DNA of 64,000 bases from Methylocystis sp. Sn-Cys (lineage in GTDB: Bacteria; Pseudomonadota; Alphaproteobacteria; Rhizobiales; Beijerinckiaceae): contig NZ_JAERVJ010000002.1 of assembly GCF_016745395.1 (NCBI RefSeq), positions 434,001 through 498,000 on the forward strand, read 5' to 3'. This document shows, piece by piece, positions 34,937-63,350 of this stretch. The notes under the pieces are model-generated. The model was not told where the DNA came from and ran no database searches. It was given only the letters and a program-made list of their open reading frames with translations. Both the position numbers and the translations under genes were made by a program. Positions within the stretch are counted from its first letter, which is position 1, and every line of letters starts with the position of its first letter.

Positions 34937-35210
34937 CGGTTATATCTGACTGTATTCCAAGGGTAAACACCGCCTGATTGAAATAAATCAAGGATTTTAC
35001 CTTTTCTTTCAGAATTTCACCGGAGACTAGCAGCTATGATAATATACAACTTCAGGCCGTATATCTCTAAAGACTAGCTGGTTTGCATCTCTTCCTCGCG
35101 GGCCAACAGATGCGCGTTAATCTTGGCCGTCAGTCCTGCTGAGCCGAAGGCGGATCGAAACCGGGAGCAAGCCAACCAGTCGCCGCCACAGATGGCGCAG
35201 GAGCATGTCC
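34937..35210. other. AT-rich intergenic leader before the rpfF-like gene
   Basis: The first 150 bases are markedly AT-rich compared with the surroundings (TTGAAATAAATCAAGGATTT and nearby). No gene is seen; the stretch probably contains the promoter of the DSF synthase-type operon. Confidence 0.5.
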
Positions 35211-36140
35211 ATGACGGGAATCGTCTTTCGCGGCCCGAAGGATCCGAGCGAATTTCCCAATTGGCGTTTCGAAACGCTGGAAATCGACTACGACCGTGAA
35301 ACGGCGTCCGTCTGGATGAATTATCGCGTCGACGCGCCGCAATGCTACACGCCGACCATGCTCGCCGAGCTGCTGCAATTGCGCGATTCCCTCAGGGTCT
35401 TGGGCATGTCCGGGCGGATCGAGGAATTTCCTTTCAGATATTTGGTCATGACGGCCAAGCGGCCCGGCGTCTTTTCCCTCGGAGGGGATCTGGCGACATT
35501 TGCCGCGGCGATCCGGCGCCAGGATCTTGCGACCTTGGTTACCTATGCGCACGCCTGCGTCGATCTCGTTTACGGTTACTCCCAGAGCCTCGATTTGCCG
35601 ATCGTCACGCTCTGCGCCGTGCAGGGACAGTGCCTTGGCGGCGCGCTCGAGGCGGCGCTCGCCTTCGATTTCATTCTTGCCGAAGAAAATGCGATGTTTG
35701 GCCTTCCCGAGGTCGCCTTCAATACTTTCCCGGGGATGGGCGCAGTCACCATGTTGACCCGCCGCGTCGGCTCCGCCCTTACTCAGCAAATCATCATGAG
35801 CGGCCAGACCTATACGGGCCGTCAAATGTTCGAGCTGGAAGTCATCGATCAAGTCACCTCGCCCGGAACCATCCGCGCGGCCGCGGTCGAATGGATGCGC
35901 GACGCCGGCGGCAAAAAATGGCGGCGCCGGCGCGCCATCGCCGAAGCCCGGCGTCGCAGCCATCCCGTCACTCACGACGAGCTCATCCGGATCACCGAGC
36001 TTTGGGCGGAATGCTCGGCGCGCATCGAAGAGCGCGACCTGCGCCATATGGAGAGACTGGTGCGCGCTCAGAAGCGGTTGATCGGGTCAAGACAAAACGC
36101 TCCGGAAGGCGAGCAACTTCTGGTATCTAGCTCGTCGTGA
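35211..36140 (+). CDS. RpfF-type DSF (diffusible signal factor) synthase, crotonase family
   Basis: This 309-residue crotonase-fold protein is most like RpfF, which makes cis-2-unsaturated fatty acid signals from acyl-ACP. Shared blocks with Xanthomonas RpfF, recalled from knowledge of the family, are FSLGGDLATF, the GGALEAALAF block, GLPEVAFNTFPGMGA and the C-terminal LRHMERLVRAQKR. Both catalytic Glu residues are present: Glu147 (GGALEAAL) and Glu167 (GLPEVAF), 20 residues apart as in RpfF (141/161). ATG 35211 has AGGAG 7 bases upstream; ATG 35205 is too close to it. A GGDEF-EAL gene follows with a GTGA overlap or an 18-base gap, which links signal synthesis to cyclic di-GMP. Product identity is inferred. 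Confidence 0.85.
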   Translation: MTGIVFRGPKDPSEFPNWRFETLEIDYDRETASVWMNYRVDAPQCYTPTMLAELLQLRDSLRVLGMSGRIEEFPFRYLVMTAKRPGVFSLGGDLATFAAAIRRQDLATLVTYAHACVDLVYGYSQSLDLPIVTLCAVQGQCLGGALEAALAFDFILAEENAMFGLPEVAFNTFPGMGAVTMLTRRVGSALTQQIIMSGQTYTGRQMFELEVIDQVTSPGTIRAAAVEWMRDAGGKKWRRRRAIAEARRRSHPVTHDELIRITELWAECSARIEERDLRHMERLVRAQKRLIGSRQNAPEGEQLLVSSSS

Positions 36141-36157
36141 CGACAAGGGAACGTGGC

Positions 36158-38455
36158 ATGCAGGCCAAAGCCTCGACCAATCCCAGATCCGCCGCCGAAG
36201 CGGAAATTTACGCCGATCTCGTCGAGACGCTGTTCGACACGACGCACTCGCTCGTCACCGGCATTCTGTCGGGCGTGCTCGTCCCCGCCATTGCCTGGAT
36301 TTCAACCAGAGAAACCTCGTATCTCTGGCTCGCGGGCCTGATGTCGCTGATCGGGGTCTATCGCGTTCATGTCCTGCTTTCCCATGATCGCGCGCCGATC
36401 GAGGCGCGTCGCCGGGATGCAGAGATTTGGGAACGGCGCTACGCCGTCGGCGCGATTAGCTTTATGGTCACGCTCGGCGTCGCCACCGCAATATTGTTCA
36501 ATTATCACGAAAACGAAATCGCGGCCTATTACGGCGTGATCATCATGACCGGCGTCACCGGGAATCTCGCGGCCCGCAACGCTGCGCGTCCGAACATCGT
36601 GTTCTGGCAAATGATGGGCACCTGCATGCCCCTCGCCTTCACGATCATTTTCAACTTTTCTCCCTGGTATTGGGGCATCTCGGCGTTTCTCGGGTTTGGC
36701 GCGCTGGCGGTCTTCAAGACCACGAAGTTCCTCAAGAACATTCTCGTCTCCGCGCTGCGTAACGGCCGCGACGCCATGCGCCAGCGCCAGAAGTTCAGCA
36801 TCGCCCTGAACTCCATGACCCATGGCCTCTGCATGGGCGACTCTTCGCTAACCATCTCGGTGATGAATCGGCGCATCGTCGAGTTTTTCGGAATCGTCGC
36901 CGCTGCAACGCCCATCAAGCTCGACGCGCTGGCTCACGCCATTGGCCGCACCGCCAATATGTCGCCGGCGGAAATCGAGGAGTTCAAGGAACTCTGGATG
37001 CGGCACGCCGCTATGCCGCAAGCGACCGTCTTCATGCGGCGGATCGGCGAACGCTACTTCAACTTCCACTGTGAGCGCGCCGAAGGCGGGGCTTTCGTCA
37101 CGGTCATCGAGGACGTGACCACCCAGCAACGAGCGCTACGCGAAATCGAGCGCATCGCTCATTTCGACGAACTGACGGGCCTTCCCAATCGCTATCATTT
37201 CCAGGACGCACTCGGGGCGGACATGCTCCGCCTCGGCGTGACCGAGGGGAACGCCGTCCTGATCACCGTCGATCTCGATCGCTTCAAGGAAGTCAACGAC
37301 ACGCTTGGCCATATGGTCGGCGACAAGCTGCTCGCCCATGTCGGCGCGCGGCTCAGCGCCTGCGCCCCGACGCCGAATCTGGTCGCCCGGCTCGGCGGCG
37401 ACGAATTCTGCATCTTGATGCGCGCGCCGCATGAGGCGTCGCAGATCGACGCGATGAGCGCCGTTATTCTGAAGGAATTGAGCCGCCCCTTCCGGATCGA
37501 CGGGCATCGCATCACGGTCGGCGCGACGATAGGCCTTGCGATCGCGCCGCAAGACGCCGACACTCCCATCGGCCTGCTCAAATGCGCCGATCTGGCGCTT
37601 TACGAAGCCAAATTGGGGGCTCGCGGGACAGCGGTCCGATACAGCCCCAAGATGCAGGACGCCTTGCTCGAAAAGCGCGCCATCGAGGAAGAGCTCCGCG
37701 AAGCGTTGGTCAAAGACGAGCTGGCGCTATTCTACCAGCCGATCGTCGACTCCCGTCGCGGCGCGATCGTCGCGATGGAGGCGCTGGTTCGCTGGCGCCA
37801 TCCCGAGCGCGGCATCATCTCCCCCGGCGTCTTCATTCCGGTCGCCGAACAGACTGGCTTGATCGTCGAAATCGGCGCATGGGTTCTGCGGCGGGCTTGC
37901 GAGGACGCGGTCGCCTGGCCGCGGCATGTCCGGGTCGCCGTCAATCTTGCGCCGAAACAGTTCCATCAGGCGGACCTCATCGACACGATCGCGACGGCGC
38001 TCGACGACAGTGGTCTCGACCCCGACCGGCTGGAGCTCGAAATCACCGAGTCGACCCTGATCAGCAACACCGATGACATCCAGGCAAAGCTCGCGAAAAT
38101 CGACGCTCTGGGCGCGCGGCTGTCTCTCGACGATTTCGGGACCGGCTACAGCAGCCTGAGCTATCTGAACCGCTTCCCCGTGAAGAAGGTGAAGATCGAT
38201 CAAGCCTTCTCGCGACAGGCGATCGAGTCCCCCAAAACGCAGGCGATCATCAGCGCCATTTCGGCGCTGGCGAAAGACCTCAATCTCGACCTTGTCGCCG
38301 AGGGCGTGGAAACCCAAGCCCAGCTCGGCTTCATGGCGAGCAAGAATATTTTCTTGATCCAGGGCTATCTCTACAGCAAGCCGCGTCCGATCGAGGAGCT
38401 TGCGCCGCTCCTCGAATGCTGGAGCGACGCGCCGCGGCTCGAAAGCGCCGCCTGA
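36158..38455 (+). CDS. Membrane PAS-GGDEF-EAL cyclic di-GMP enzyme
   Basis: This 765-residue protein has five or six transmembrane helices (about residues 28-190), a PAS-like domain (about 205-325), a diguanylate cyclase domain with intact GGDEF (413-417) and an EAL domain (EALVRW, 541-546). The EAL domain has the catalytic set ELEITES, LDDFGTGYS, VKIDQAF and AEGVET. The RxxD inhibitory site before GGDEF is absent (PTPN instead). Both activities are therefore plausible, in one direction or switched. ATG 36158 has AAGGGA 7 bases upstream; GTG 36137, overlapping the rpfF stop, is the alternative. The membrane part may sense the signal made by the gene before it. Confidence 0.92.
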   Translation: MQAKASTNPRSAAEAEIYADLVETLFDTTHSLVTGILSGVLVPAIAWISTRETSYLWLAGLMSLIGVYRVHVLLSHDRAPIEARRRDAEIWERRYAVGAISFMVTLGVATAILFNYHENEIAAYYGVIIMTGVTGNLAARNAARPNIVFWQMMGTCMPLAFTIIFNFSPWYWGISAFLGFGALAVFKTTKFLKNILVSALRNGRDAMRQRQKFSIALNSMTHGLCMGDSSLTISVMNRRIVEFFGIVAAATPIKLDALAHAIGRTANMSPAEIEEFKELWMRHAAMPQATVFMRRIGERYFNFHCERAEGGAFVTVIEDVTTQQRALREIERIAHFDELTGLPNRYHFQDALGADMLRLGVTEGNAVLITVDLDRFKEVNDTLGHMVGDKLLAHVGARLSACAPTPNLVARLGGDEFCILMRAPHEASQIDAMSAVILKELSRPFRIDGHRITVGATIGLAIAPQDADTPIGLLKCADLALYEAKLGARGTAVRYSPKMQDALLEKRAIEEELREALVKDELALFYQPIVDSRRGAIVAMEALVRWRHPERGIISPGVFIPVAEQTGLIVEIGAWVLRRACEDAVAWPRHVRVAVNLAPKQFHQADLIDTIATALDDSGLDPDRLELEITESTLISNTDDIQAKLAKIDALGARLSLDDFGTGYSSLSYLNRFPVKKVKIDQAFSRQAIESPKTQAIISAISALAKDLNLDLVAEGVETQAQLGFMASKNIFLIQGYLYSKPRPIEELAPLLECWSDAPRLESAA

Positions 38456-38498
38456 TAACCCAAGGCTCCGGATCCAGGCTACAAACCCCACGCAGTCG

Positions 38499-38637
38499 CG
38501 TCATGCCCGCGCTTGTCGCGGGCATCCACGCCAGGACGTTACGACACGCGGGAAGAAGAAGCGGGCGTTGCTCGCTAATGTTTACCGCTTTCGCATCGGC
38601 GCGGCGTGGATGGCCGCGACAAGCGCGGCCATGACGC
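38499..38637. repeat. Palindromic repeat, family E-like, copy 2
   Basis: The arms GTCATGCCCGCGCTTGTCGC...GGCATCCACG and CGTGGATGGCCGCGACAAGC...ATGAC pair across a central region. It is related to the element at 19216-19384. It lies between convergent genes. Confidence 0.7.
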
Positions 38638-38722
38638 TGGAACACGTCTGCTCGTTAACCCGAATTCTGTCAGCCCACTTGGGAAAGCCCCAATGCGAGC
38701 TGTTCGAGTGGAAACAGCCTGA

Positions 38723-39409
38723 CTATCGATGCACGATGTCGATGACCGGCCGCCGATCGATCGGCGGTTCGGCCATGCGCTGCGCGCGGAAGATTGCGTG
38801 GGACGCGTTATAGTGCCGGTCGAATTGCGTCAGATAGGTCGAGATGCCGGAAAACTCTGGCTGCGCCGGCACAACATCCCTGACCAGCATCAGATCGCGC
38901 GCCTCGGCGGCTGAAAGGGTTTGCTCGCTTTCGATCAACCGCTCCGTTCTGGAAAAGCCGATCCGGCGACCGACCGCGGCATAGAGGCCGAAAAGGTCGA
39001 AGGGTTCGCCGGCAAAGGAAAAACACGCTTCCCTTTCAGCCACGATCGCAGCGCAATTCATGGCAAAATCGAAATCCAGACCGGCAAGAAGCGAACGCGC
39101 CCATGCGATCGTGATGACGGGGGTGTCGATAATCAGCTCCGCAGTGGCCGCCACCATTTCCGCGAAACCGTCCGGCGCGACCGCCGCGCCGGCGCCTTCG
39201 GCGAAGTCGAACACCAGAAATCTCAGTTGCGGCTGCTCGCCGCCGGCGATCTCACGCAGGACGCCGGAGATCTTGTGAGCGCTGGCGCGATCGAACCCCG
39301 GCCGGCTTTTGGAGAGAACCAGCGCTTCGCGCTGCCGGAGCCAATGCGTTCGTACGCCAGTTGAAGTATTTGTAAACGCAGACCAATCTTTACTCGAAAC
39401 AACTCTCAT
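38723..39409 (-). CDS. Divergent crotonase-fold protein, possible RpfF paralogue
   Basis: This 228-residue protein of the enoyl-CoA hydratase/isomerase superfamily is judged from the order of its blocks. A strand-rich part, LRFLVFDFAE, is followed by DTPVITIAWARSLLAGLDFD and ACFSFAGEPFDLFG, where typical crotonases have the GG-x-E oxyanion segment and the GLPE segment. The later RTERLIESEQTLSAAEARDL matches the family helix that includes a substrate-site cap. Compared with the RpfF-like gene of this window, the first catalytic Glu seems replaced by Asp and the second is displaced. It may bind acyl chains without RpfF activity. It faces the RpfF/GGDEF-EAL pair. Confidence 0.6.
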   Translation of the reverse strand: MRVVSSKDWSAFTNTSTGVRTHWLRQREALVLSKSRPGFDRASAHKISGVLREIAGGEQPQLRFLVFDFAEGAGAAVAPDGFAEMVAATAELIIDTPVITIAWARSLLAGLDFDFAMNCAAIVAEREACFSFAGEPFDLFGLYAAVGRRIGFSRTERLIESEQTLSAAEARDLMLVRDVVPAQPEFSGISTYLTQFDRHYNASHAIFRAQRMAEPPIDRRPVIDIVHR

Positions 39410-62481: not shown

Positions 62482-62567
62482 ATCCGCCTCGCCATTCACG
62501 CCGCGCAAATGGTAGATCGCTTCAATTGGCGGATGATTTGCGCTGCGTTACCTTGGACGGGCTTCTC

Positions 62568-63350
62568 ATGTTTGGTTTCCTACGCCGGAAGACGCGTGAT
62601 CACGAACGGATGGCGAGGGACATGCGCCGCTCTCTGAAAGACGGCGATTTCCGACTCCTCTATCAGCCGATCATCGACTCGAAGGGCGAAACGATGGTCG
62701 GCGTCGAGGCGCTCTGTCGCTGGCGCCACCCTGTTCGCGGCGAGACGCCGCCATCCGCCTTCATCGCAATCGCGGAGGAAACCGGGCTGATCGATCAGCT
62801 TGGTCTTTTCGTGCTGCGGCAAGCCTGTCTCGACGCCCGCAATTGGCCGGGCGTCATCGTGTCGGTCAATGTTTCGCCACGCCAATTCAAAGAAGAGCGA
62901 TTTCCCGAGGCCGTCCTGAAAATTCTGGCTGAAACGGGCTTGGAGCCGTCACGGCTGGAGCTCGAACTCACGGAGACTTTGGCGGTCGTCGATCTCGATC
63001 TGGCGCGGGCGAAAATGCTCGTTCTCCAAAATCACGGCGTGCGCATCGCGCTCGACGACTTCGGCTCCGGCCACTCCGGTCTCAGTTATTTATTGTCGCT
63101 TCCCTTCGACAAGTTGAAGGTCGACAGGATGTTTGTCTCGCATATCGAATCGGGCTCGGCGAGCGCCGTCATCATCCACGCCATCGTGAACATCGGGCGT
63201 GCGCTTGGCATGCATATCACCGCGGAAGGCGTCGAAACCGCCGAGCAGCAGCAATTTCTCCACGGGGCGGGCGTCCACTTCTTCCAGGGATTCCGTTTTA
63301 GCCGGCCGGTCGACGCGAGCGAGATTCTCTCCCGGCTGCAAGCGCAATAG
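62568..63350 (+). CDS. EAL-domain cyclic di-GMP phosphodiesterase, stand-alone
   Basis: This 260-residue protein consists of one EAL domain with a short basic N-terminus. All expected catalytic motifs are visible: EALCRW, NVSPRQF, ELELTET, LDDFGSGHSG, LKVDRMF, AEGVET and QGFRFS. It has no sensor or GGDEF domain. ATG 62568 is chosen over TTG 62526. It lies 86 bases after the secretion gene on the same strand, so read-through from the secretion operon is possible. Confidence 0.9.
   Translation: MFGFLRRKTRDHERMARDMRRSLKDGDFRLLYQPIIDSKGETMVGVEALCRWRHPVRGETPPSAFIAIAEETGLIDQLGLFVLRQACLDARNWPGVIVSVNVSPRQFKEERFPEAVLKILAETGLEPSRLELELTETLAVVDLDLARAKMLVLQNHGVRIALDDFGSGHSGLSYLLSLPFDKLKVDRMFVSHIESGSASAVIIHAIVNIGRALGMHITAEGVETAEQQQFLHGAGVHFFQGFRFSRPVDASEILSRLQAQ

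Follow-up and report, generated by a model that had tools for sequence, protein, structure and literature searches.

An RpfF-clade synthase gene beside a membrane PAS-GGDEF-EAL gene in Methylocystis: a candidate third receptor architecture for DSF-type signals

In the literature on diffusible signal factor (DSF), RpfC/RpfG and RpfR are described as the core receptors, with RpfS, BCAM0227 and DsfR as additional ones (PMC4504480). Burkholderia diffusible signal factor (BDSF) is bound by the PAS domain of RpfR, which raises phosphodiesterase activity (PMC4504480, PMC8846402); RpfR and RpfC have both been reported to bind the synthase RpfF (PMC6361424, PMC13220807), which is restrained by the FI domain of RpfR (PMC6361424) and by the receiver domain of RpfC (PMC13220807). 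Here we analysed a 64,000-nt stretch of the Methylocystis sp. Sn-Cys genome (contig NZ_JAERVJ010000002.1, positions 434,001 to 498,000; the whole stretch is hereafter called the window), in which an rpfF-like gene is followed on the same strand by a gene for a membrane PAS-GGDEF-EAL protein. We propose that this pair is probably a one-component acyl-signal circuit, in which a one-protein membrane receptor would control cyclic di-GMP and would represent a third DSF-type receptor architecture.

The gene at 35211..36140 (plus strand; alternative start at 35205) encodes an RpfF-clade crotonase with an intact active site. The open reading frame is uninterrupted, and its product of 309–311 residues (depending on the start, 35211 or 35205) matched the family NF006452/PRK08788 with 283 bits against a cut-off of 177. 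Its best four matches in the PDB were 3m6m and 6dgn, deposited as RpfF, and 7zq7 and 5fus, for which the depositors chose the names crotonase/enoyl-CoA hydratase family protein and putative enoyl CoA hydratase. A profile of 16 relatives, compared with the PDB, scored these same four structures at 266–306 bits and the best other crotonase at 89; on this gap to the housekeeping crotonases, identity as an ordinary enoyl-CoA hydratase was rejected. The PDB RpfFs were placed within the RpfF-like family in a tree, as was one long-branch outgroup row; this was a quick tree with SH-aLRT support only, 41 of its 93 inner branches being open, for which 12 near-identical sequences had been removed beforehand and one outgroup row was dropped by the tree program. 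Profile and tree agreed in siding the window protein with RpfF, a grouping that an earlier note, made from the letters of this DNA alone, had asked to be checked. The catalytic Glu pair is E149 and E169 (counted from 35205), with a spacing of 20 residues that alignments revealed to be identical to that of Xanthomonas RpfF. E169 was kept in 105/105 and E149 in 103/105 RpfF-like sequences, and the alignment of these 105 sequences bore out the two catalytic residues and the Xanthomonas-like spacing that had been recognized before. Among the matches listed, the closest named relatives were proteins of Methylocystis strains at 52% identity, the window's own species possibly lying outside the search. 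Two loci (L044 and L045) have Asp at the first catalytic Glu position in RpfF-like proteins that are paired with a membrane GGDEF-EAL protein.

The partner gene occupies 36158..38455 on the plus strand, with an alternative GTG start at 36137, and its product accordingly has 765–772 residues. Starting at GTG 36137, it would overlap the rpfF-like stop by 4 bases, and starting at ATG 36158 it leaves a gap of 17 bases; the latter start was chosen because the protein of a sister species (L039) aligns from this ATG (MQA...). The earlier note had given the spacing as a GTGA overlap or 18 bases, of which the overlap option stands and the second figure is corrected to 17. Pfam and the sequence itself confirmed a multi-helix membrane PAS-GGDEF-EAL architecture with both enzyme motifs intact: an N-terminal membrane input domain of five to six hydrophobic helices (36194..36766) is followed by a PAS_7 domain (36806..37135; 46.2 bits), a GGDEF domain (37157..37621; 133.1 bits) and an EAL domain (37688..38383; 245.5 bits), and the motifs GGDEF, EAL, DDFGTGYS and KIDQAF are legible. 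A promoter scan gave 3 hits against 1.3 expected and a terminator scan 6 against 5.3 expected, neither providing a lead.

Compared with the RpfF/RpfR system of Burkholderia and Cronobacter, the locus is alike in that an RpfF-clade synthase stands beside a single protein carrying GGDEF and EAL domains, with no phosphorelay. RpfR, however, is described as a soluble FI-PAS-GGDEF-EAL protein with the FI domain at its N terminus, whereas the window partner begins with a helical membrane domain, contains no FI-like domain recognized in the Pfam scan and belongs to an alphaproteobacterial host; moreover, the PAS domain is missing in its Sphingomonas relatives. With the RpfF/RpfC/RpfG system of xanthomonads and Methylobacillus, the locus shares the RpfF-clade synthase, a multi-helix membrane input and an output through cyclic di-GMP, but the window pair has no kinase, receiver or HD-GYP domain, and the membrane domains have no detectable sequence homology. 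By membership tests on its sequence, the window partner belongs to neither the RpfR nor the RpfC receptor family. Multi-helix membrane inputs feeding a GGDEF domain are also a feature of the MASE-type domains of diguanylate cyclases, from which the helical domain of the window differs in that it scored above the cut-off of no Pfam model (the best, ABC-3, reached 14.1 of 20.1 bits). MASE-type input domains are named in PMC8846402. We found no description, by title or abstract, of a membrane GGDEF-EAL receptor for DSF or of a FeeM/GGDEF-EAL pair, which is weak evidence given that most subscription journals lie outside the search.

The pairing of synthase and membrane protein recurs in other genomes. 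We surveyed 397 genomes of the order, accepting RpfF-like matches at E<=1e-20 and matches to the membrane-domain profile, A1, at E<=1e-8, and found the former in 55 and the latter in 135. With A1 positions taken among the matches listed, a comparison of coordinates placed the membrane protein next to rpfF in 17 of the 55 RpfF-like genomes. G181 makes an eighteenth case, its rpfF-like and membrane genes lying near the ends of two contigs. The 17 pairs are arranged convergently in 7 genomes, with the synthase first in 5 and with the receptor first in 5. We also classified 80 named loci, the best of 507 relatives from a wider search: 14 have a membrane GGDEF-EAL protein, 27 have RpfC with a REC-GGDEF-EAL protein and 14 have RpfC without one, and the remainder comprises 4 loci with another GGDEF-EAL gene in tandem, 18 with no recognized partner and 3 that are cut off (L060, L075 and L093, unclassified at contig ends). 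Within the class with no partner, L097 was set by hand despite a GGDEF-EAL gene about 3 kb away, and L111 has a GGDEF-only neighbour. The profiles for A1, for RpfC-type sensors and for the named loci were all built from studied loci, and their best scores favour those loci. The 14 membrane-paired loci belong to two Methylocystis, Chelatococcus albus, seven named Sphingomonas, one Candidatus Sphingomonas and metagenome-assembled genomes (Pseudolabrys, Hyphomicrobiales and one unplaced proteobacterium), and are convergent in 9 cases, synthase first in 3 and divergent in 2. The survey thus found the pair kept in distant relatives, as the earlier note had suggested looking for, and the several arrangements indicate that the association outlived rearrangement, unlike an operon frozen in a single form. 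Distances between synthases correlate with those between receptors (r 0.88, 20 of 26 pairs), a value confounded by species history. An EAL gene would be found as one given neighbour by chance about once in 300 (12 EAL-domain matches in the window genome, with about 4,000 genes assumed); chance adjacency was rejected because the pair recurs in Hyphomicrobiales and Sphingomonas.

The same genomes revealed how the pair relates to RpfC. An RpfC-type sensor (E<=1e-25) was present in 35 of the 55 RpfF-like genomes versus 1 of 25 genomes lacking RpfF, and it lay within about 4 kb of rpfF in 31 of the 35, about 9 kb away in one and far away in three. At the locus, the set paired with the membrane protein and the set with RpfC do not overlap (Fisher p 2e-11, uncorrected for relatedness), and on the RpfF tree 3 changes separate the membrane-receptor and RpfC types. 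Two RpfF-like genomes are left over: G117 has no recognized partner, and in G224 a convergent GGDEF-EAL gene runs off the contig. The window genome itself, an assembly of 4.02 Mb, contains a pmoA-type gene (PF02461, 365 bits), from which the host is probably a methane oxidiser. No RpfC-type sensor kinase was found in it at E<=1e-25 among 31 candidates scored, and no HD_5/HD-GYP domain (PF13487) at E<=0.001, so that the absence of rpfC and rpfG, noticed previously for the neighbourhood, extends genome-wide at these thresholds.

Comparison of the paired proteins bears on which part would sense the signal. Their frames measure 660–679 residues in eight Sphingomonas loci (one of them Candidatus) versus 765–873 in the six other named loci. 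In L091, the Sphingomonas partner that was scanned, Pfam found GGDEF and EAL alone and no PAS, and in the alignment the last helix of the Sphingomonas partners leads directly into GGDEF. With PAS lacking in these partners, the input element common to all RpfF-paired proteins is the membrane domain, and this comparative evidence favours the suggestion that sensing is done by the membrane helices. Within the helical domain, a motif RNAxRP (residues 147–152 in GTG numbering, codons at 36575..36592) sits at the end of the fourth hydrophobic helix in an AlphaFold2 model with a predicted local distance difference test score (pLDDT) of 81.7. R147, N148, A149, R151 and P152 are each invariant in all 26 RpfF-paired proteins. 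In the clade of homologues away from rpfF, described below, all 19 rows retain R147 and 84% retain N148, with no such conservation at A149, R151 and P152 (the count excludes L156).

Homologues of the membrane protein that lie away from rpfF have a different synthase as neighbour. Twenty of these were fetched and 17 share a common neighbouring gene (L139-L146, L148-L155 and L157); the four such neighbours that were scanned are FeeM N-acyl amino acid synthases (150–159 bits against a cut-off of 27). An A1 match without a membrane gene paired to rpfF was seen in 117 genomes, and FeeM was searched for in 80 of them, namely those with the best, long-frame matches, leaving out G082 and genomes with weaker, mostly shorter-frame matches. 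FeeM was present in 75 of the 80, and as the adjacent gene, at most 2.3 kb from the membrane domain, it accompanied 74 of 81 homologues (73 of 80 genomes). Of 32 RpfF-like genomes searched, one was positive (G347) and the 31 others were negative; the window genome has no FeeM match (PF21926) at E<=1e-15, a model that finds 75 of the 80 other genomes. The FeeM/NasY synthases (PF21926) resemble RpfF in standing beside the same membrane-PAS-GGDEF-EAL family; they are not crotonases and form a separate enzyme family that weakly matches autoinducer synthases. When the membrane proteins were placed in a tree, one clade (SH-aLRT 99) took in 19 of the 20 that lie away from rpfF, and the 26 RpfF-paired proteins fell around it in three groups; 3 state changes suffice. 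One synthase exchange would be the simplest history, its direction depending on the root. Of the products, N-acyltyrosines from FeeM-type enzymes are described as surfactants, the physiological role of such products was called unclear in 2016, and fusions of FeeM-type enzymes to PilZ, a domain that binds cyclic di-GMP, are reported (PMC4897644).

Near the membrane GGDEF-EAL genes away from rpfF, an alpha/beta hydrolase gene recurs in 6 of 20 loci (L146:4076-4966, by Pfam, and L147, L151, L152, L154 and L158); it is perhaps a signal-degrading enzyme. Shorter, divergent membrane GGDEF-EAL homologues with neither rpfF nor FeeM occur at L156:7161-8213, L168:7320-8363 and L169:3085-4116, and in all three the neighbour is an aspartate/ornithine carbamoyltransferase-like gene (a Pfam match in L156 and L168 and a resemblance seen by eye in L169).

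These data allow us to propose how the pair might work. The rpfF-like enzyme would make a cis-2-unsaturated fatty acid of the DSF family, or a closely related free fatty acid, from acyl-acyl carrier protein. The signal would partition into the inner membrane and bind the helical domain, its carboxylate plausibly lying near RNAxRP at the end of the fourth helix, and binding would alter the GGDEF/EAL output and hence cyclic di-GMP. By analogy with RpfR and RpfC/RpfG, we would guess at net activation of the phosphodiesterase. If correct, a one-protein membrane receptor would add a third DSF route in Alphaproteobacteria, including methane oxidisers and Sphingomonas. Because the homologues away from rpfF adjoin FeeM, the receptor family may be broader than DSF, its domain reading membrane-soluble acyl signals while the partner synthase is exchanged. 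In this extended form the proposal, which we advance tentatively since it might about equally hold or fail, is that one membrane receptor family, with a hitherto undescribed helical input joined to (PAS)-GGDEF-EAL, reads, directly within the inner membrane, acyl signals whose synthase has been exchanged between two unrelated enzymes, the crotonase-fold RpfF and FeeM; N-acyl amino acids would be quorum-type signals that control cyclic di-GMP in Hyphomicrobiales with FeeM. A switch of ligand from free fatty acid to N-acyl amino acid would then be marked by the loss of R151, the second Arg of RNAxRP, and the FeeM pairing would offer a concrete role for the N-acyl amino acid synthases.

Several observations weigh against the proposed circuit. 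The window protein did not reach the RpfF equivalog NF053515 of NCBIfam (176.9 bits against a cut-off of 550) and so falls outside RpfF as NCBI strictly defines it. With every group included, 5 changes of the membrane-receptor label have to be placed on the RpfF tree, which means that the pairing was gained or lost several times. Among the 80 named RpfF-like loci, 18 have no recognized receptor in the fetched stretch, some stretches being short, and such receptor-less genes imply that the enzyme can serve outside signalling. Neither FeeM nor rpfF is close to 7 of the 81 membrane homologues (G347, G349, G361, G230, G295, G106 and G070), and outside the 81, G082 has neither partner close by and no FeeM in the fetched 13 kb. 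The G347 genome holds RpfF, RpfC and FeeM together with a lone membrane homologue, RpfC lying beside rpfF and the membrane homologue elsewhere. The membrane domain has no detectable homology with the RpfC sensor (hhalign 0.6% and 0.4%), which leaves a common origin of the two unsupported, and AlphaFold2 models of the two gave no PDB fold match at E<=0.001 in Foldseek; their helix order appears similar. Last, in species that carry it, the PAS domain could also be the part that senses the signal. As an observation on the receptor-less loci, whose neighbourhoods were described among the matches listed, 12 of the 18 form one Novosphingobium/Erythrobacter clade (L079, L081, L095, L103, L109, L113, L117-L119, L127, L131 and L135).

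We weighed four other explanations of the locus. The pair might involve no secreted signal at all: the enzyme would edit membrane acyl chains or free a fatty acid, the membrane protein would read the state of the bilayer or contact the enzyme, and cyclic di-GMP would tune surface behaviour cell by cell. The orphan RpfF-like genes fit such membrane editing, as do the surfactant nature and unclear physiological role of the N-acyltyrosines noted above, and the reported binding of RpfF by RpfR and RpfC is a precedent for direct contact; we nevertheless regard this explanation as unlikely, though not negligible, since two unrelated synthases of acyl products as partners, and the mutual exclusion with the known DSF receptor RpfC, point to a signal. 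Alternatively, the locus might be a DSF circuit in which the signal is bound at the PAS domain, with the helices serving as no more than an anchor. The window protein does have a PAS_7 domain, and RpfR binds BDSF in this way, but the shorter Sphingomonas proteins, with L091 lacking PAS, speak against it, the window PAS found no PDB match up to E=1 (though PAS domains diverge widely), and, over the 235 residues compared, it is in the membrane domain that the RpfF-paired proteins have their near-invariant residues; placing the sensor in PAS is thus distinctly unlikely. That the membrane protein acts in feedback control of the synthesis of the signal, with the true receptor encoded elsewhere, we consider quite improbable: the FI domain of RpfR and the receiver of RpfC both restrain RpfF, and the window genome has 11 further EAL-domain matches, yet no FI-like domain was recognized in the membrane protein, and the fact that it and RpfC exclude each other at the locus implies a protein that stands in for RpfC. 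Barely credible, finally, is the explanation that an enoyl-CoA hydratase of ordinary metabolism has a GGDEF-EAL gene next to it to which it is unrelated; the NCBIfam name of the best-matching family (merely crotonase/enoyl-CoA hydratase) can be cited for this explanation, which is contradicted by the score gap to housekeeping crotonases and by conservation of the pairing in several gene arrangements across Hyphomicrobiales and Sphingomonas.

Facing the pair, as the earlier note had it, is a second crotonase-like gene, Crot2 (38723..39409, minus strand), which lies in convergent orientation and has lost the catalytic residues. Crot2 is a degenerate relative of the rpfF-like protein and a weak crotonase (24.3 bits for ECH_1 against a cut-off of 27), and its nearest family is PRK08788 (48.8 bits against 177). 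It was seen at five loci, all in close relatives: the window, the sister species L039, L040 and two Methylocystis loci (L059 and L061). L062, a locus that groups with L040, showed no Crot2 in the stretch that was fetched. Four of the five proteins have Asp at the Glu149 position and the other has Glu; at the Glu169 position four have Gly and one has Thr. The GGDL loop could not be aligned; without the catalytic residues, Crot2 is a pseudo-enzyme. Between the window and L039, the ratio of non-synonymous to synonymous substitution rates (dN/dS) was 0.25 for Crot2, 0.15 for rpfF and 0.20 for the receptor, and the value for Crot2 indicates a protein maintained under purifying selection. In what is the most speculative step of the proposed mechanism, Crot2 may restrain or tune the synthase, by analogy with the FI domain of RpfR and the receiver of RpfC. 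The window genome has 11 ECH_1 matches, which include the rpfF-like gene and Crot2.

Other output proteins were seen beside RpfF-like or RpfC-type genes. An RpfC-type kinase with a REC-GGDEF-EAL protein in place of the HD-GYP protein RpfG characterizes the 27 named loci counted above (examples are L043, L046, L047, L052, L053 and L056); Pfam assigns the RpfC-adjacent output protein of L046 the architecture REC-PAS-GGDEF-EAL, and that of Methylobacillus L078 the classical REC-HD. At L167 (G255), an RpfC-type kinase and a REC-GGDEF-EAL protein occur with no RpfF-like gene in the fetched 15 kb, and the G255 genome has no RpfF-like match at E<=1e-20. In betaproteobacterial L126 (and, by eye, in L104 and L138), the gene after the RpfF-like one encodes a MerR DNA-binding-PAS-GGDEF-EAL protein. 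Elsewhere in the window, a stand-alone EAL protein is encoded at 62526-63350, after genes that by eye resemble type II secretion GspL/GspM.

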